Under the pieces are notes generated by a model. The model was not told the DNA's origin and made no database searches. It was given only the letters and a program-made list of their open reading frames with translations. This document shows positions 12,049 through 21,368 of a stretch of DNA of 38,978 nucleotides, one piece after another. Positions within the stretch are counted from its first letter, which is position 1. The number at the start of each line of letters is the position of its first letter. Both the position numbers and the translations under genes were made by a program. Origin of the DNA: Pseudomonadota bacterium (GTDB lineage: Bacteria > Pseudomonadota > Gammaproteobacteria > Burkholderiales > Rhodocyclaceae); the NCBI GenBank assembly GCA_018262095.1, contig JAGTRW010000039.1:1-38978 (forward strand), read 5' to 3'.

Positions 12049-12084
12049 GTAAATATATTTACTTTACTTTACGAATCGATGTAA
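12049..12084. promoter_or_regulatory. Operator-like cluster: perfect palindrome, triple TTTAC repeat and TTAC/GTAA dyad
   Basis: GTAAATATATTTAC at 12049-12062 is a perfect 14-base palindrome. Its right arm is the first of three tandem TTTAC units (12058-12062, 12063-12067, 12068-12072). The last unit pairs with GTAA at 12081-12084 as a second dyad, TTAC-N8-GTAA. The cluster overlaps the -35 and spacer of the predicted promoter, a position suited to repression. RpiR-family regulators commonly bind such dyads near their own genes. Assignment to the adjacent regulator is an inference. Confidence 0.5.
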
Positions 12085-12091
12085 CTATCAT
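12063..12091 (+). promoter_or_regulatory. Predicted sigma-70 promoter of the RpiR-iaaA-gsiABCD-dmpA-dppA operon
   Basis: TTTACT (12063-12068), an exactly 17-base spacer, then TATCAT (12086-12091): four of six and five of six matches to the -35 and -10 consensus. Transcription would begin near 12098, leaving a leader of about 25 bases before the ATG at 12124. No good Shine-Dalgarno sequence is visible in that leader. Confidence 0.5.
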
Positions 12092-12123: not shown

Positions 12124-13014
12124 ATGCCGCGCAAACCACGACAGCCGCAAACGATCACGATCAAGGACCGGATTGCCAAGGCGATGCCCGACCTGACTCC
12201 GGCCCATCGACAAATGGCCGACTATGTGCTGGCCAATTCGTTTCGTTCGGCCACCATGATGATCGACGAACTGGCCGCGGCCACCGGCGTCTCCGTCGCC
12301 ACCGCCAACCGCTTCGCGCATACGCTGGGCTTCAACGGATTCCCGGCTTTTCGCGCCGAACTCGTTCGCGGCTTCGAAAGCGCCCTGGCGCCGGTCGAAA
12401 AAATGCGCGACGAACTCACGCGCACGGCGACTTCGGCCGAGGTCATGTCCGCCGCCTTGGGCGACAACCTCAACAATCTCGAAATGATCAGGAAGAACCT
12501 GCCGGCCGACACCTGCGAGCAGATCGTCAGCGCGCTGCTCGGCGCGCGGCGCGTGCTGGTCGCCGGCTTCGGCACCAGCGGCTTTCTCGCCGGGGCGCTG
12601 GCGCACGGGCTTGAACTGCATTGCAACTATGTGCAGTCGCTGGCCGGCATCGGCGGACCGGCGCACGGCGCGCGAACGCTGTTCAAGTTGAGCGCCCAGG
12701 ACGTGGTGATCGTCATCTCATTCCCGCGCTACGTGCGCGACAGCATCACCATCGCCGCCAAAGCGCGCGAACGCGGCGCGCGCATCGTCGCGCTGACCGA
12801 CAAGCCGAGCTCGCCGCTCGCCGCGCTCGGCGACCTGACACTCTACCTGCAGACGGACAGCGGCTTTGGCGCCACCTCCGATGCGACCGTCTATGCCGTG
12901 ATCGAAGCGCTATGCGCCGCCGTCGCCCGACGCGCCAAAAACTCAGTCAAATCCGCCGCGGCGATGACCGAATTCGTCCTGCCCTGGCTGCACAACGAGG
13001 AGAAAACCAAATGA
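12124..13014 (+). CDS. RpiR/MurR-family transcriptional regulator (HTH + SIS domain)
   Basis: A 296-residue regulator of usual family length. The N-terminal HTH_6 domain (about 10-85) contains MADYVLANSFRSATMMIDELAAATGVSVATANRFAHTLGF. A SIS phosphosugar-binding domain covers about 125-270 (VLVAGFGTSGFLAGALAH and VIVISFPRYVRDSI). Known members sense sugar phosphates or MurNAc-6-phosphate, but the ligand is unknown here and the downstream genes are peptide rather than sugar genes. Its TGA overlaps the iaaA start (ATGA, 13011-13014), so it is the first gene of the operon and probably autoregulates through the dyads at 12049-12084. The ATG lacks a clear ribosome site. Confidence 0.9.
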   Translation: MPRKPRQPQTITIKDRIAKAMPDLTPAHRQMADYVLANSFRSATMMIDELAAATGVSVATANRFAHTLGFNGFPAFRAELVRGFESALAPVEKMRDELTRTATSAEVMSAALGDNLNNLEMIRKNLPADTCEQIVSALLGARRVLVAGFGTSGFLAGALAHGLELHCNYVQSLAGIGGPAHGARTLFKLSAQDVVIVISFPRYVRDSITIAAKARERGARIVALTDKPSSPLAALGDLTLYLQTDSGFGATSDATVYAVIEALCAAVARRAKNSVKSAAAMTEFVLPWLHNEEKTK

Positions 13015-13991
13015 CCGCTGTCATCGCCATTCACGGCGGCGCCGGAACGCTCACCCGCGGCGCGCTGTCCGCCGATCGCGAAAAGGACTACCTCGACGCG
13101 CTCGATCACGTGCTGCAAGGCGGCCAGGCCATCCTCGAACAAGGCGGCAGCGCGCTCGACGCGGTGACTGAAGCGGTCTTCCGGCTCGAGGAATGTCCGC
13201 TGTTCAACGCCGGCAAGGGCGCCGTATTCACCGAGCAAGGCGGCCACGAACTCGACGCGGCGATCATGGACGGGCGCACGCTGGCGGCCGGCGCCGTGGC
13301 CTGCGTCAAATCGCTGCGCAACCCGGTGCTGGCCGCGCGCGCGGTGATGGACGACGGTCGCCACGTGCTGCTGGTCGGCGACGGCGCCGAGGCTTTTGCA
13401 AAGAGCGCCGGACTCGAACTGGTCAGCGCCGACTACTATTTCACCGCCGAGCGCTACGCCCAGTGGCTGCGTTCGCAAGCGAACGGCTCGACCGACCTGC
13501 TCGACCACGATGCCCAGGCGATGCAGCACGAGGCGGCACCGATCGACGCCGAAAGCAAGCTGGGCACCGTCGGCGCCGTCGCCCTCGACAGACACGGCAA
13601 CCTCGCTGCGGCAACCTCGACCGGGGGACTCACCGGCAAACGCGCCGGGCGTGTCGGCGACAGCCCCCTGATCGGCGCCGGCTGCTACGCCAACAACCGC
13701 ACCGTCGCCGTGTCGTGCACCGGCTCAGGCGAAATGTTCATCCGTTCGCTCGCCGCCTACGACGTTTCCGCGCTCGTCGAATATCGCCAATTACCGCTCG
13801 ACGAAGCCTGCCGCATCGTGGTCATGGAAAAGCTGCCGATGATCGACGGGCGCGGCGGCCTCATCGCCGTCGATGCCCAAGGCAACGTTTGCCTGCCGTT
13901 CAACACCGAAGGCATGTACCGCGGCCAGGCGCGCGCCGGGGGACCGCGGCGCACGGCGATCTACCGCGAAGAAAACCGGAGAGCGAATTGA
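13011..13991 (+). CDS. iaaA: Isoaspartyl peptidase / plant-type L-asparaginase
   Basis: Ntn-hydrolase of 326 residues that removes beta-aspartyl (isoaspartyl) residues from dipeptides and has side activity on asparagine. The start [10 protein letters not shown] is typical. The autocleavage site that frees the nucleophile is [11 protein letters not shown], with Thr186 expected to become the N-terminus of the beta chain. [11 protein letters not shown] and [12 protein letters not shown] also match the family. ATG at 13011 overlaps the RpiR stop and has GAGGAG nine bases before it. In E. coli iaaA directly precedes gsiABCD, the same order as here. The mature enzyme is expected to be a cytoplasmic heterotetramer of two alpha and two beta chains. 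Confidence 0.95.
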
Positions 13992-15865
13992 ACAGCACCG
14001 CTGCCAGCGAACTGATCCTGCCCGACCACCGCGTCGTCGCCGTCGATCAGCTCACCGTCTCGTTTGCCACCAGCGAAAGAACGGTGGTTGCGGTGAACAA
14101 TCTGTCATTCCACGTCGATCGCGGCGAAACGCTGGCCATCGTCGGCGAATCGGGTTCGGGAAAATCGGTCACCTCGCTCGCGCTGATGCGCCTGGTCGAA
14201 CACGGCGGCGGCAAGATCACGCACGGCAGCATGCGGCTGCGGCGCAACAGCGGCGAACAGCTCGACCTGGCGCGCGCCGACAGCAGCGCGTTGCGCGGCG
14301 TACGCGGCGCCGACATCGCGATGATCTTTCAGGAACCGATGACCTCGCTCAACCCGGTGTTCACCGTCGGCGAACAGATCGCCGAGCCGATCCGCCTGCA
14401 CCAGGGCAAGGATCGCCAGGCGGCGCTCGCCGAGGCGCTGCGCATGCTCGAACTGGTGCGCATCCCGGACGCCCGCCAGGTATTGCAGCGCCATCCGCAC
14501 CAGTTATCCGGCGGCATGCGCCAACGCGTGATGATCGCCATGGCGCTGTCGTGCCGTCCGGCGCTGCTGATCGCCGACGAACCGACGACGGCGCTCGACG
14601 TCACCATCCAGGCGCAGATCCTGCAACTGATCCGCACGCTGCAACACGAGATGCAGATGGCGGTGATGTTCATCACCCACGACATGGGCGTCGTCGCCGA
14701 AGTCGCCGACCGCGTGCTGGTGATGTACCGCGGCGAGAGCGTCGAACAGGGCGAGACCGTCGCATTGTTCACGGCGCCACAGCATGCCTACACGCGCGCG
14801 CTGCTGTCGGCGGTACCCAAGCTCGGCGCGATGCACGGCGAGGATTACCCGGCCAAGTTCCCGCTGCTGCAGCTCGACGCCGACGCTCCGACGCCGCCCG
14901 CCGAGCCGCAAATGACCGTCGACCAGAGCGCCGGCCCGATCCTGCGCGTACGCGACCTCACTACCCGCTTCCCGGTGCGCAGCGGCCTGTTCGGCCGCGT
15001 CACCAAAGCGGTGCACGCCGTCGAGCGCGTCAGCTTCGACCTTTACCCCGGCGAAACGCTGGCGCTGGTCGGCGAGTCGGGTTGCGGCAAGTCGACCACC
15101 GGCCGCTCGCTGCTGCGCCTGGTCGACAGCCAGAGCGGCAGCATCGAGTTCGCCGGACAGCGCATCGACGCGCTGCAAGGTCCGACGCTGCAACGTCTGC
15201 GCCGCGATATCCAGTTCATTTTCCAGGACCCTTTCGCTTCGCTCGATCCGCGCGTCACCGTCGGCTTCTCGATCATGGAACCGCTGCTGGTGCACAAGCT
15301 GGCCGCCGGCAAGGACGCCGAGGCGCGCGTCGCCTGGCTGCTCGAAAAGGTCGGCCTGCCGGTGCAATTCGCGCAACGTTATCCGCACGAGTTTTCCGGC
15401 GGACAGCGCCAGCGCATCGCGATCGCGCGCGCACTGGCGTCCAACCCCAAGGTCGTGATCGCCGACGAATCGGTTTCGGCGCTCGACGTCACGATCCAGG
15501 CGCAGATCGTCAACCTGCTGCTCGACCTGCAAAAGGAATTCGGCCTCGCCTTTCTCTTCATTTCGCACGACATGGCCGTCGTCGAGCGCATCGCGCATCG
15601 CGTGGCGGTGATGTACCTCGGCCAGATCGTCGAAATCGGTCCGCGCCGCGCGATCTTCGAAAACCCGCAGCACCCGTACACGAAGAAGCTGATGGACGCC
15701 GTTCCGGTCGCCGACCCGGCCAAACGCCAGCGCCAGCGCGCTCTGCTCAGCGAAGAAATACCCAGCCCGATCCGTGCGCTGGGCGACGAACCCAAGCTCG
15801 CCCCCCTGTACGAGGTCGGCTCCGGGCATTTTGTAGCGCGCCATACGCTTTCCGGCGCTTTTTGA
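13988..15865 (+). CDS. gsiA: Glutathione/peptide ABC importer, fused double ATPase GsiA
   Basis: Two DppD/DppF-like ATPases fused in one 625-residue chain, matching GsiA (about 620). First half: Walker A GESGSGKS at 53-60, LSGGMRQR at 173-180, [12 protein letters not shown]. Second half: Walker A GESGCGKS at 362-369, FSGGQRQR at 469-476, [12 protein letters not shown]. The second Walker B carries DES rather than DEP, which is normal in this family. Each half ends with an oligopeptide-transporter C-terminal extension ([14 protein letters not shown] and [14 protein letters not shown]). The start is TTG at 13988, overlapping the iaaA TGA as TTGA with GGAG seven bases ahead, so translation is probably coupled. 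It powers the GsiBCD importer encoded next. Confidence 0.94.
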
Positions 15866-15906
15866 GTGCACCTGCCCTCGCGGGCTATTGATAAAGGACG
15901 TTTTCA

Positions 15907-17460
15907 ATGAAATCGACCCACCGCCTCATCAGCCTCCGGCACTTCCTGATCGCCGGAACGCTCGCCGCCACGGCGCTATCCACCGCGGCCTTGGCCGCCA
16001 AGGATGTCGTCCTGGCGGTCAATTCGACCTTCACCACGCTCGACCCCTACGACGCCAACGACACGCTGTCGATGGCCGTCGCCAAGTCCTTCTACCAGGG
16101 CCTCTACGGCTTCGACAAGGACTTGAAGCTCACCAATGTGCTGGCCGAGAGCCACCAGGTCAGCAAGGACGGGCTCGTCTACACCATCAAGCTGCGCTCG
16201 GGAGTCAAGTTCCACGACGGCAGCACCTTCGACGCCGCCGCAGTCAAGGCCAACTTCGACCGCGTCACCAACCCGGACAACAAGCTCAAGCGCTACACGA
16301 TGTTCAACCGCATCGCCAAGACCGAAGTGGTCGACGCGCACACCGTCAAGTTCACACTCAAGGAACCGTTCTCGCCGTTCATCAACGTTCTGGCACACCC
16401 GTCGGGCGTCATCATCTCGCCGACTGCGCTCAAGAAATACGGCAAGGACATCGCCTTCAACCCGGTCGGCACCGGCCCCTTCGCCTTCCAGGAATGGAAG
16501 CAGACCGACTACCTCAAGGTCAAGAAATTCGACGGCTACTGGAAAGCGGGCCTGCCCAAGGTCGATACGCTGACCTGGAAACCGGTCGTCGACAACAATA
16601 CCCGCGCCGCGGTGATTCAGACCGGCGAAGTCTCGTTTGCCTTCACGCTGCCGTACGAGCAGGCCGAGCAGCTCAAGACGAGCCCGAAGGTCGATATCGT
16701 CGCCGGCCCGTCGATCATCGCGCGTTATCTGTCGATGAACACCAAACAGAAGCCGTTCGACAACGTCAAGGTACGCCAGGCGATCAACTACGCGATCAAT
16801 AAAGAAGCGCTGGTCAAGGTCGCCTTCTCGGGCTACGCGGCACCGGCCGAGGGCGTCGTTCCGGAAGGCGTCGAATACGCGCAGAAATTCGGCGCGTGGC
16901 CGTACGACCCGGCCAAGGCCAAGCAGCTGCTGGCCGAAGCGGGCTATCCCAACGGCTTTGAAACGACGCTGTGGTCGGCGTATAACCACTCGACGGCGCA
17001 GAAGGTGATCCAGTTCGCCCAGCAACAACTGGCGCAGGTCGGCATCAAGGTCCAGATCCAGGCGCTCGAAGCCGGACAACGCGTCGAGCGCGTCGAAAGC
17101 CAGCCCAACCCCGATGCCGCGCCGGTTCGCATGTACTACATCGGCTGGTCGTCGTCGACCGGCGAAGCCGACTGGGCGCTGCGTCCGCTGCTGGCCTCCG
17201 AGGCCTTCCCGCCGAAGCTGCTCAACACCGCGTACTACAAGAACGAACTGGTCGATGGCAACATCGCCAAGGCGCTCAACACCACCGACGCGGCGGAAAA
17301 GGAAAAGCTCTACAAGGCTGCGCAGAAGCAGATCTGGGACGATGCGCCGTGGGCCTTCCTGGTCACCGAAAAGGTGCTCTACGCGCGCGCCAAGAACCTT
17401 TCCGGGATCTACGTGATGCCTGACGGCTCGTTCAACTTCGACGCCATCGAGCTCAAGTAA
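15907..17460 (+). CDS. gsiB: Glutathione/peptide ABC importer, periplasmic binding protein GsiB
   Basis: A 517-residue family 5 solute-binding protein. A Sec signal peptide covers residues 1-30 with a probable cleavage after ALA; there is no lipobox, so it should be freely periplasmic. The start of the mature domain ([34 protein letters not shown]) and the central NPVGTGPF and [20 protein letters not shown] match GsiB/DppA-type proteins. GsiB in E. coli binds glutathione; homologues of this length bind a range of di- and tripeptides, so the ligand is not certain. A ribosome site AAAGGA precedes ATG at 15907. A 225-bp gap with an inverted repeat separates it from gsiC. Confidence 0.93.
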
Positions 17461-17479
17461 GCGTTAAAACCAAGGGACA

Positions 17480-17638
17480 AACCACGGCGGCACGGCGTGC
17501 ACGGCGAAAAGCCACTATTTTCGGAGTCTTGTCGTACCCGCAGGGTGATTGATGCGGGCGCTACAAGTTATCGTTATTTCGCTGTCCCATAGGGATTTGC
17601 TTCGCGGCATGTTCGCTGTGTTCGCCGTGGTCAACTGT
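17480..17638. repeat. REP-like dispersed repeat with inverted ends, copy 1 (between gsiB and gsiC)
   Basis: The left end is built of ACCACGGCG, CACGGCG and CACGGCG units (about 17480-17508). The right end is its imperfect inverse, GTTCGCTGTGTTCGCCGTGGT (17611-17631, written here without flanks). About 100 bases lie between. The same architecture recurs at 27241-27364. It contains no open reading frame with a ribosome site. It may be an mRNA-stability element or a small non-autonomous mobile repeat. Confidence 0.6.
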
Positions 17639-17685
17639 TTCTTTTTGGCTCAACTGCTGTTTCAACGAATTTCTCCGGGTTCAAG

Positions 17686-18606
17686 ATGCTCAATTACGTT
17701 CTCAAACGTCTGCTCGGCCTGATCCCGACGCTGCTCATCGTCGCCGTGCTGGTCTTCCTCTTCGTCCACCTGCTGCCCGGCGACCCGGCGCGGCTGGCCG
17801 CCGGCCAGGAGGCCGACGAGGCGACGGTCGAACTGGTGCGCCAGGATCTCGGGCTCGACAAGCCGATCCACGTCCAGTTCGTCACTTTCTTCGGCAACGC
17901 GCTGCGCGGCGAATTCGGCAAATCGATGAGCAGCAAGCGCCCGGTCAGCCGCGAAATCGCCGAGCGCTTCATGCCGACCTTCTGGCTCACGCTGGCCAGC
18001 ATGGGCTGGTCGGTGCTGTTCGGCATGGGCATCGGCATCGTCTCGGCGGTCTGGCGCAATCGCTGGCCCGACCGCCTGGGAATGACGCTGGCGGTGTCCG
18101 GCATCTCGTTCCCGGCGTTCGCGCTGGGAATGCTGCTGATGCAGGTCTTCTCGGTCGGTCTCGGCTGGCTGCCGTCGATGGGCGCCGACTCATGGAAACA
18201 CTACATCCTGCCGTCGCTGACGCTCGGCGCGGCGGTCGCCGCGGTGATGGCGCGCTTCACGCGCGCCTCGTTCGTCGAAATCATGCAGGAAGACTTCGTT
18301 CGTACCGCTCGCGCCAAGGGCGTCAGCGAACCGCTGGTGGTGCTCAAGCACTGCCTGCGCAACGCCATGATCCCGGTCGTCACGATGATGGGGCTGCAAT
18401 TCGGTTTCCTGCTCGGCGGCTCGATCGTCGTCGAGAAGGTATTCAATTGGCCGGGGCTCGGACGACTGCTGATCGACGCCGTCGACATGCGCGACTATCC
18501 GATCATCCAGGCCGAAGTGCTGCTCTTCTCGCTCGAATTCATCCTCATCAACCTGATCGTCGACATGCTCTACGCCGTGATCAACCCGACCATCCATTAC
18601 AAGTGA
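17686..18606 (+). CDS. gsiC: Glutathione/peptide ABC importer, permease GsiC
   Basis: A 306-residue DppB-type inner-membrane permease with six predicted helices. It begins [36 protein letters not shown], the family start. The cytoplasmic EAA loop that contacts the ATPase reads [25 protein letters not shown]. The length matches E. coli GsiC (306). It pairs with GsiD, which starts seven bases after its stop. The Shine-Dalgarno sequence before ATG at 17686 is weak. It is separated from gsiB by a structured repeat, so it may be expressed below the binding protein or from its own start. Confidence 0.94.
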
Positions 18607-18613
18607 GCCAGCG

Positions 18614-19516
18614 ATGAGCACAAGTTCTTCCGCCAGCATCGCACCGATTGCCGCCAACGCCGACGACGTCCGCACGCCCTGGAGCGAGTTCTGCCGAAAA
18701 TTCCGCAAGCAGCGTCTGGCGATGATCGCCGGCGGCTTCGTCGTTTTTCTGGTGCTGGTCGCCCTCCTCGCGCCGTACATCGTTCCCTTCGACGCCGAGA
18801 ATTTCTTCGACTACGACGCGCTCAACGCGACGCCTTCGGCGAAGCACTGGTTCGGCGTCGACTCGATGGGGCGCGACATCTTCAGCCGCATCCTGATGGG
18901 CTCGCGCATCTCGCTCGCCGCCGGAATCGTCTCGGTCGCGCTCGGCGCGCTGATCGGCACCTCGCTCGGCCTGCTCGCCGGCTATTACGAGGGCTGGTGG
19001 GACCGCATCACGATGCGTCTGTCCGACGTGCTGTTCGCCTTCCCGGGAATCCTGCTGGCGATCGGCGTCGTCGCCATCCTCGGCAGCGGCATGAGCAACG
19101 TCATCGTCGCCGTCTCGATCTTCAGCATCCCGGCCTTCGCCCGGCTGGTGCGCGGCAATACGCTGTCGCTCAAGCACCTGACCTACATCGAAGCGGTACG
19201 CAGCATCGGCGCTTCCGACTGGACGATCATCACCCGCCACATCCTGCCGGGGACGATCTCGTCGATCGTCGTCTATTTCTCGATGCGCGTCGGCACCTCG
19301 ATCATCACCGCCGCCAGCCTCTCTTTCCTGGGGCTCGGCGCACAGCCGCCGACGCCGGAATGGGGCGCGATGCTCAACGAAGCGCGCGCCGACATGGTCA
19401 CCGCGCCGCATATCGCGATCTTCCCGAGCCTCGCCATCTTCCTCACCGTGCTCGCCTTCAACCTGCTCGGCGACGGTCTGCGCGACGCGCTCGACCCGAA
19501 GATCGAACGCCAATGA
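18614..19516 (+). CDS. gsiD: Glutathione/peptide ABC importer, permease GsiD
   Basis: A 300-residue DppC-type inner-membrane permease. A hydrophilic N-terminus (about 1-35) precedes the first helix ([21 protein letters not shown]). The region [24 protein letters not shown] is the DppC/OppC signature. The EAA loop reads [21 protein letters not shown], and [21 protein letters not shown] near the C-terminus is highly conserved. It forms the channel with GsiC. Its TGA overlaps the start of the P1 peptidase gene (ATGA, 19513-19516), so the peptidase is translationally tied to the transporter. Confidence 0.94.
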
Positions 19517-20553
19517 GTTGCCTCTCCGACGACGCACCGCGCGTCGGCTACCTGCCGAGCGGGCCGCGCGACGCGATCAGCGACGTCGGCGAAATTCGGG
19601 TCGGTCACTTCACGCTCGACCAAGATGCCGTGCAGACCGGCGTCACCGTGCTCGTGCCGCACGGCGGCGACCACTTCGTCGCCAAGGTTCCGGCAGCGAC
19701 GGTGGTGCTCAACGGTTTCGGCAAGAGCGTCGGGCTACTCCAGGTCGACGAACTCGGCGTGCTCGAGACGCCGATCGCACTGTCCAATACCTTTGCCGTC
19801 GGCCTGCTCGCGCAGGCGCAGATCCGCGCCGCGCTGGCCGCACACGCGCAGATCGGGCGCGACTGGCCGACGGTAAACCCGCTCGTTTTCGAGTGCAACG
19901 ACGGCTATCTCAACGACATCCGCGCGCTGGCGGTCACTGAGGCGCATTATGCCGAAGCGCTGGCCAAGGCCTCGCCCGACTTTGCCCAGGGCAGCGTCGG
20001 CGCCGGTCGCGGCATGAGCGCCTTCGAACTCAAGGGCGGCATCGGCAGCGCCTCGCGCCTCGCCGAAAAGTACACGGTCGGCGCGCTGGTGCTCGCCAAC
20101 TTCGGCAAGCTGCCGATGCTGACCATCGCCGGGCGAGCGCTCGGGCGCGAACTGGCCGACCGCCAAGAAGCCGACGAGACGCCCGAGCGCGGATCGATCA
20201 TCATGCTGCTGGCCACCGACGCGCCGCTCGACGCGCGCCAGTTGCACCGTCTGGCGCTACGCGCCGGCGCCGGACTGGCGCGCAGCGGATCGTCGTTCGG
20301 CCACGGCAGCGGCGACATCGCGCTGGCGTTGTCGACCGCCTATACGCTGCCGCATCTGGCGACGACGCCGATGCCGAGAATCGCGATGGTGCATGAAAGC
20401 CGCCTTGACCCCCTGTTCGCCGCCGCCGCCGAAGCCACCGAACAGGCCATCGTCAATGCCTTGTGGCACGCCACGGCGGTGAGCGGGCGTGACGGCCACC
20501 GCCGCCGCAGCTTGCGCGACGCGCTGCAACAGCTCGAAAGGAAAGACCAATGA
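19513..20553 (+). CDS. dmpA: P1-family self-processing aminopeptidase (DmpA/BapA type)
   Basis: A 346-residue enzyme of the DmpA fold. Family members cleave themselves before a Ser that becomes the N-terminal nucleophile; here the site is Gly227-Ser228 in [15 protein letters not shown]. Other family marks are [14 protein letters not shown] near the N-terminus, [18 protein letters not shown] and [16 protein letters not shown]. Characterised relatives release D-amino acids, glycine or beta-amino acids from peptides, activities that ordinary aminopeptidases lack. The ATG at 19513 overlaps the gsiD stop, and its own TGA overlaps the dppA start, so it is part of the operon. No signal peptide is seen, so it should act in the cytoplasm on imported peptides. 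The exact substrate is unknown. Confidence 0.9.
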
Positions 20554-21368
20554 AAATCCTGATTTCAACCGACATCGAAGGCGTTGCCGGCGTCGTCCAC
20601 CCGGACCAGACCCGCGCCGGGAACGCCGAATACGAGCGCGCCCGACGCTGGATGACGCAGGAAGCCAACGCCGCCGTGGTCGGCGCGTTTGCCGGCGGCG
20701 CGACGGCGGTGCTGGTCAATGACTCGCACGGCGGCTATCGCAACCTGCTGCCCGACGAGATCGATGCGCGCGCCCGCTGCGTGCTCGGCAAACCGCGCGC
20801 GCTGGGAATGATGTCGGGACTGGAAACAGGCTGCGACGCGGTAATGCTGATCGGCTACCACGCGCGCTCGCAAGCGGCCGGCGTGCTGGCGCATACGATC
20901 AACAGCTTCGCCTTTGCGCGTCTCTGGCTCAACGAGCAAGAGCTCGGCGAGGCCGGTCTCTATGGCGCGCTGGCCGGCGAAATGGGCGTTCCGGTGATTC
21001 TCGCGAGCGGCGACGATGCGTTCGCAGCGGAAACGCGCCAGTTGCTGCCGCACTGCGGCTTCGTCGTCACCAAGGAATCCGGCGGCCGCCACAGCGCCAT
21101 TTCGCTCTCGCCGCAAGCGTCATGCGCGGCGATCGCCGACGGCGCCCGACAGGCGATGGGCACGCTCGCGCAGGCGCAGCCGTACAGACTGCCGCCGCCG
21201 ATAAGCACCCGCCTGCAGGTGCACACGCCGGCGTTCGCCGACCTGTTCTGCCAATGGCCGACGCTCGAACGCGTCGATCCGGTCACGCTGCAGTTCACGT
21301 CGGCCAGCGTCGAACACGCGATACGCGTGCTCAACTGTCTCTCGGCAATGTCCTTCATGCTGCGCTGA
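20550..21368 (+). CDS. dppA: M55-family zinc D-aminopeptidase (DppA type)
   Basis: A 272-residue protein matching Bacillus subtilis DppA, a decameric zinc D-aminopeptidase that prefers D-Ala-D-Ala-like substrates. The family's metal ligands are visible at nearly the same numbering: Asp8 and Glu10 (STDIEG), His60 (NDSHGG), His104 (GYHA) and a Glu near 134 (LGEAGL). The candidate catalytic His115 (GVLAHT) is also kept. ATG at 20550 overlaps the dmpA stop (ATGA). In Bacillus, dppA also heads a dipeptide ABC operon, supporting a role in using D-residue peptides such as cell-wall fragments. This is not the dipeptide-binding protein that shares the name DppA in E. coli. Confidence 0.93.
   Translation: MKILISTDIEGVAGVVHPDQTRAGNAEYERARRWMTQEANAAVVGAFAGGATAVLVNDSHGGYRNLLPDEIDARARCVLGKPRALGMMSGLETGCDAVMLIGYHARSQAAGVLAHTINSFAFARLWLNEQELGEAGLYGALAGEMGVPVILASGDDAFAAETRQLLPHCGFVVTKESGGRHSAISLSPQASCAAIADGARQAMGTLAQAQPYRLPPPISTRLQVHTPAFADLFCQWPTLERVDPVTLQFTSASVEHAIRVLNCLSAMSFMLR

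Follow-up and report, generated by a model that had tools for sequence, protein, structure and literature searches.

Inspection of a 38,978-nucleotide stretch of Rhodocyclaceae DNA (contig JAGTRW010000039.1 of assembly GCA_018262095.1; hereafter the window) reveals eight genes, ordered rpiR-iaaA-gsiA-gsiB-gsiC-gsiD-P1-M55 on the forward strand, that probably constitute one catabolic operon for short peptides handled badly by common peptidases. The set combines an RpiR-family regulator, a glutathione-importer (GSI)-type transporter and three peptidases, and its most likely role, judged from sequence, would be to import glutathione-class or iso-linked/D-residue peptides and hydrolyse them in the cytoplasm. 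The first gene, rpiR (12124-13014, +), encodes the regulator, with HTH_6 (52.5 bits) and SIS (67.6 bits) domains, and is followed by iaaA (13011-13991, +), encoding an IaaA-type isoaspartyl aminopeptidase (Asparaginase_2, PF01112, 362.5 bits) with Thr186 as nucleophile. The importer comprises a double ATPase with ABC_tran in two stretches (gsiA, 13988-15865, +, TTG start), an SBP_bac_5 periplasmic binding protein (gsiB, 15907-17460, +) and two BPD_transp_1 permeases (gsiC, 17686-18606, +; gsiD, 18614-19516, +). A P1/S58-family aminopeptidase (P1 gene, 19513-20553, +; Peptidase_S58, PF03576, 372.8 bits) and a predicted M55 zinc D-aminopeptidase (M55 gene, 20550-21368, +; Peptidase_M55, PF04951, 329 bits) complete the set. 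A first-pass annotation of this DNA had described a compact eight-gene layout chained by four overlaps. On re-reading, all coordinates proved exact, including the 4-base overlaps at 13011, 13988, 19513 and 20550, but the genes are not closely packed along the whole operon: the remaining junctions measure +41, +225 and +7 bases, the largest lying between gsiB and gsiC. G+C across the operon ranges from 0.62 to 0.68 without a sharp step, no tRNA was found in the window, and promoter and terminator scans gave nothing above chance.

Evidence for a functional unit comes from the conservation of the gene order. Searching genome contigs with the P1 protein turned up 455 relatives, from which the best 80 loci were kept. 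Among these, 69 carry the complete set in the same order on one strand, and six others (L010, L012, L038, L041, L052 and L072) reach a contig end. By title, the hosts include Cupriavidus, Achromobacter, Bordetella, Ralstonia, Paraburkholderia, Variovorax, Polaromonas and Ramlibacter, together with Accumulibacter metagenome-assembled genomes (MAGs), one Paramesorhizobium and one Budvicia. This gene-neighbourhood comparison bears out the earlier suggestion that similar layouts exist in other betaproteobacteria, and the conserved order shows the eight-gene layout to be real and more than a chance arrangement.

A test independent of P1 started from GsiB proteins above the NCBIfam cut-off, which were found in 23 of 398 genomes across the phylum; for the 22 other than the window, the surrounding genes were compared. 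Within the window's own order, nine of ten GsiB loci (window included) hold all eight genes. Thirteen loci from one family (f18) were taken as enteric-type because they gave the highest scores and E. coli is the passing control. No rpiR, P1 or M55 match was found at these 13 loci (L138 is cut at a contig end and is uninformative for P1 and M55), and L123-L125 gave no iaaA match either. Across 200 genomes of the order, GsiB over the cut-off occurs in nine and M55 in nine, with both in eight (hypergeometric 1.5e-12, uncorrected for kinship). P1 occurs in 21 of the 200, including all nine with GsiB, where it lies 1.9-2.2 kb from GsiB and is adjoined by M55 in eight. The exceptions are one genome with M55 that lacks P1 and GsiB over the cut-off (G663), one with GsiB and P1 that lacks M55 (G660), and 12 with P1 that lack GsiB over the cut-off. 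Judged by these gene contexts, importer, IaaA, P1 and M55 behave as one unit extending the E. coli iaaA-gsiABCD operon. In E. coli K-12 the genes b0828-b0832 share the order iaaA-gsiA-gsiB-gsiC-gsiD with the window, and the proteins are 60.5 (IaaA), 68.9 (GsiA), 62.1 (GsiB), 78.8 (GsiC) and 75.9% (GsiD) identical; unlike the window, the E. coli stretch examined contains no rpiR, P1 or M55 gene.

The three peptidases are each preserved at their catalytic positions. Residue counts refer to homologues from the fetched loci. The Gly227-Ser228 self-cleavage site of P1, noted at first reading, is invariant in 88/88, and Gly185-Thr186 of IaaA, at the alpha/beta junction, is present in 79/79; the alignment to beta chains such as 1jn9_B begins at residue 186. 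For M55, alignment to 1hi9 finds its metal ligands conserved in the window protein as D8, E10, H60, H104 and E134; the fifth is E134, not E133, as the window protein is one residue longer than 1hi9 at that point. These five and H115 are each found in 86/86 homologues, in agreement with the initial claim that all metal ligands are present. P1 belongs to the S58 (DmpA/BapA) family and carries the Gly-Ser site, but the original label of "DmpA-type" is a loose one, since archaeal 2drh (291 bits), rather than DmpA itself (1b65, 178.5 bits) or BapA, is the nearest solved structure. P1 gave no NCBIfam match at E 0.001. All three peptidases appear to lack a signal peptide, judged by reading their N-termini. 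An M55 enzyme encoded with a peptide ATP-binding cassette (ABC) importer recalls the dppA-dppBCDE operon of B. subtilis, which pairs a D-aminopeptidase with a dipeptide importer; PDB entry 1hi9, named "dipeptide transport protein DppA", matches the window M55 at 4.9e-35. The window differs from that system in having an importer of the GSI branch and, in addition, IaaA, P1 and RpiR.

By family score the importer is of GSI type, with GsiB (838 vs 594 bits), GsiC (616 vs 463 bits) and GsiD (580 vs 484 bits) all over their NCBIfam glutathione-importer cut-offs; together with the gene order, these scores uphold the first-pass description of a GSI-type importer extended by P1 and M55 peptidases. The best solved match of GsiB is YliB (1uqw). 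An Asp of DppA binds the peptide amino group, and this position is Ser in 80/80 operon-type and 12/12 enteric-type GsiB proteins; 194 columns are conserved alike in the two groups. The GsiB, GsiC and GsiD scores also speak for a simpler account, possible though doubtful, in which, as in E. coli, the operon encodes a plain importer of reduced glutathione (GSH) and glutathione disulfide (GSSG) that supplies sulfur and amino acids, with the extra peptidases serving general clean-up. No activity on the gamma-glutamyl bond is known for any of the three peptidases, which counts against this account, as does the tight linkage of P1 and M55, which speaks against their being mere passengers. In addition, neither of the genome's two gamma-glutamyltransferases is encoded on the operon's contig, and one sits at a locus that could itself do this job. 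That locus (L152:1824-14326, contig C10) holds, beside the gamma-glutamyltransferase, two family-5 binding proteins, two homoserine sulfhydrylase-type enzymes and a serine acetyltransferase, and from its gene content looks like a peptide-sulfur scavenging locus.

Published data on GsiB binding and on a phcA mutant lend the glutathione account further support. E. coli GsiB was reported to bind GSH and GSSG (PMC6236770), and a delta-phcA strain of R. solanacearum reportedly up-regulated gsiABCD and used glutathione as a sulfur source (PMC5615195). In potato roots relative to rich medium, R. solanacearum log2 changes of -2.7 (RSc1377, regulator), -3.4 (RSc1378, isoaspartyl peptidase), -2.2 (RSc1381, GsiC) and -3.1 (RSc1384, D-aminopeptidase) are given in PMC5357869. 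By tag and product these four genes fit operon positions 1, 2, 5 and 8, and RSc1377-1384 is inferred to be this operon from tag order and product names; RSc1379, RSc1380, RSc1382 and RSc1383 were not found by search in the main text of that paper. So assigned, the root data fit co-regulation of the operon genes. Both sets of R. solanacearum data are consistent with an operon that responds to peptides, without telling glutathione apart from other peptides.

A second alternative, very unlikely, is that in this organism the operon imports beta-Asp-Arg freed from cyanophycin by a secreted cyanophycinase, with IaaA splitting the dipeptide. The genome does encode a cyanophycinase (L151:6343-7278, contig C17) that exceeds the TIGR02069 cut-off (169.6 vs 126.6 bits) and has an N-terminus that reads by eye like a signal peptide, making imported beta-Asp-Arg a concrete candidate substrate here. 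It lies near an EamA transporter, a glycerate kinase and a GntP permease, on a different contig from the operon and without iaaA beside it, and beta-Asp-Arg would need neither P1 nor M55. In PMC10206079, cyanophycin-scavenging clusters are described that hold cyanophycinase, isoaspartyl dipeptidase and transporters; the pairing of an isoaspartyl dipeptidase with transporters resembles the window, whereas the window operon has no cyanophycinase. The same paper reports that betaproteobacteria often carry CphA1 with IaaA or IadA while a recognisable cyanophycinase is absent, and cyanophycin therefore would not explain the operon in general.

Regulation of the operon can be approached through a perfect palindrome, GTAAATATATTTAC (12049-12062, no strand assigned), first spotted by a search for inverted repeats upstream of rpiR and predicted to be the operator of the operon's own RpiR. 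Across 78 upstream regions (77 loci and the window), GWAAATNNATTTWC is present exactly in 55 and with at most one mismatch in 65; 50 rounds of dinucleotide shuffles gave mean counts of 0.02 and 0.38. This comparison overstates independence, since the loci are relatives of one another and some of them served both to define the motif and to count it. The loci total 1.59 Mb and contain 56 exact matches to GWAAATNNATTTWC, so that at most one lies away from the rpiR upstream regions, and the palindrome at 12049-12062 is the sole match in the window at up to one mismatch. The variants GTAAAT..ATTTAC and GAAAAT..ATTTTC swap symmetrically between genera, with some mixed forms. In contrast, 18 gsi loci without a detected rpiR yielded a single site at up to one mismatch within 600 bases upstream of iaaA/gsiA, at -566 (L124). 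A relative of the same genus (G052), which has no rpiR beside iaaA, showed no site at two or fewer mismatches in the two stretches scanned; its whole genome has 0 exact sites and 16 at one mismatch, vs 3 for the reversed control. These counts show that the conserved palindrome is tied to the presence of an rpiR gene. Palindromic sites of similar length are reported to be bound by the RpiR-family regulators RccR and SpNanR (PMC5489143, PMC12713135). The window palindrome is probably the operator of the operon's RpiR. Directly 3' of it stand weak sigma-70-like hexamers, TTTACT-17-TATCAT (12063-12091, +), a possible promoter found once in the scanned region vs 1.1 times expected in shuffles and thus not above chance. 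A wider RpiR regulon was considered and rejected: the window's genome has one other exact palindrome, which falls within the opening codons of a reading frame on contig C17. The cyanophycinase lies ~4.5 kb from this second palindrome, and no promoter link between them was found.

The window regulator shares HTH_6 and SIS domains with MurR, HexR, AlsR and NanR but differs from them in its phosphate-binding loop. In an alignment with E. coli proteins, residues 199-206 read SFPRYVRD, compared to SHTGRTKN in HexR, SYSGSKKE in MurR and THSGRTSD in AlsR. The homologues carry an [ASG]FPRYxxD-like loop in which Pro201, Arg202 and Asp206 are invariant (77/77). The phosphate ligands of SpNanR are given as Ser135, Ser179, the Leu180 backbone, Ser181 and Thr184 in PMC12713135. 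Ser135 aligns to window Ser152 in the first loop, which is kept in 76/77 homologues. Ser179 falls at position 199, a Ser in 7/77, Ser181 at Pro201 (77/77), and Thr184 at position 204, where Leu (40/77) and Val (28/77) prevail. That is to say, by alignment the window regulator is without the SxSGxT phosphate-binding loop of sugar-phosphate-sensing RpiR proteins, and is unlikely to hold a sugar phosphate in the usual way; the conserved Arg and Asp could instead suit a zwitterion or carboxylate. A similar SVWRYLRD occupies the loop position in the solved regulator domain 3sho, which places this type of loop outside the operon as well and hints that a wider RpiR branch lacks the sugar-phosphate loop.

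The first-pass annotation had reasoned from the SIS domain to a phosphosugar signal such as N-acetylmuramic acid 6-phosphate (MurNAc-6-phosphate), an argument that fails because the phosphate loop is replaced in 77/77 homologues. In a coarse test of flanking genes, which used stop-to-stop frames and in which peptidoglycan genes were not searched by name, no conserved extra neighbour common to many genera was found; of the 16 groups displayed, the largest covered 27/88 loci, its six printed ids being Bordetella and Achromobacter. Scavenging of cell-wall peptides under a MurNAc-6-phosphate signal is thus highly improbable and was rejected on the lost loop: the SIS domain and the action of M55 on D-residues speak for it, while the absence of any widely shared neighbour gene in that test stands against it, as does the lack of a known role for IaaA on the gamma-D-Glu bond.

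The operon is probably a route for difficult short peptides. GsiB would capture small glutathione-class peptides in the periplasm, and GsiA, GsiC and GsiD would drive their import with ATP. In the cytoplasm, IaaA would split beta-aspartyl (iso) bonds, the P1 enzyme would trim N-terminal residues from peptides resistant to ordinary aminopeptidases, and the M55 enzyme would trim N-terminal D-residues, with the released amino acids entering general metabolism. RpiR would bind the palindrome before its own gene and control the whole operon, with a ligand that is probably no sugar phosphate but the peptide taken up or one of its products. A more specific version, which we advance only tentatively and consider unlikely as it stands, is that the operon serves specifically to salvage peptides that have aged chemically, and that its RpiR belongs to a new class of regulators. 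Spontaneous isomerisation and racemisation of Asp and Asn yield L-isoAsp and D-residues, which stop ordinary peptidases; the importer together with IaaA, P1 and M55 would recover just such peptides, and the SIS domain would sense a peptide or amino acid in place of a sugar phosphate.

Several observations weigh against the main reading. GsiA falls narrowly under its NCBIfam cut-off (1034 vs 1077 bits), and ten GsiB columns show a fixed difference between enteric-type and operon-type proteins, so that the ligand ranges of the two may differ. IaaA (441.9 vs 567 bits, PRK10226) and M55 (174.5 vs 430 bits, DppA) are each under the NCBIfam equivalog cut-off; by these scores the window M55 is a member of the Pfam M55 family outside the DppA equivalog. 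Five of the 80 P1 loci depart from the set, with P1 alone at L007 and L011, P1-M55 only at L009, and no rpiR match at L057 and L074, and at a further locus, L127, importer, IaaA and M55 are kept while P1 and rpiR matches are absent. In G052 two contigs share the set between them: C62 has iaaA-gsiA-gsiB, followed by an inserted gene and the first part of gsiC, C131 has P1-M55, and no rpiR match turned up in the 6 kb before iaaA. No palindrome is present even at one mismatch in 13 of the 78 upstream regions. The overstated independence of the shuffle figure and the indirect identification of RSc1377-1384 belong on the same side.

Within the window's family, P1 was found in 2 of 101 genomes, both in one genus of 68. 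Trees of 47 loci selected from those fetched, read without support values, place the window with the MAG/environmental loci L005, L006, L008 and L013 in both the GsiA-D and the P1+M55 tree; the next neighbours differ, being Ralstonia and Cupriavidus in the transporter tree vs Paraburkholderia-type loci in the P1+M55 tree. The operon may have entered the window's genus by transfer as a block. P1 genes 72-73% identical to that of the window occur without importer or M55 in a Propionivibrio and an Accumulibacter MAG (L007 and L011). In a genome of another class (L136:5327-13962), gsiABCD-P1 is accompanied by iaaA and M55 on the opposite strand, with GsiB under the cut-off; this divergent arrangement may mean that the gene association is older than the operon described here.

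The gsiB-gsiC gap (17461-17685) consists of a dispersed-repeat match with hairpin-forming sequence. It has 44 matches in the genome (self included), mostly short, and a fold of -78 kcal/mol (z -2.16). Relatives carry restriction-modification genes between gsiB and gsiC, namely a type IIG enzyme (L144:10856-14131), a type II methyltransferase with a restriction enzyme (L008:5797-7963) and, judged by eye, a type II methyltransferase and restriction enzyme pair (L010:309-2421). The gap may be an insertion hot spot.

No description of the combined eight-gene system appeared among the matches listed from the open-access PubMed Central literature. The parts belong to known families; their assembly is widespread, conserved and apparently uncharacterised as a whole, with a regulation that is newly predictable. 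As a widely conserved extension of the glutathione-importer operon, it would link three "odd-bond" peptidases to a single uptake route and place them in a physiological context. Through the predicted operator and the altered SIS loop, both ligand and regulation lend themselves to direct tests, and should the ligand turn out to be something other than a sugar phosphate, the usual "MurR/RpiR" label would mislead for a whole branch of regulators.

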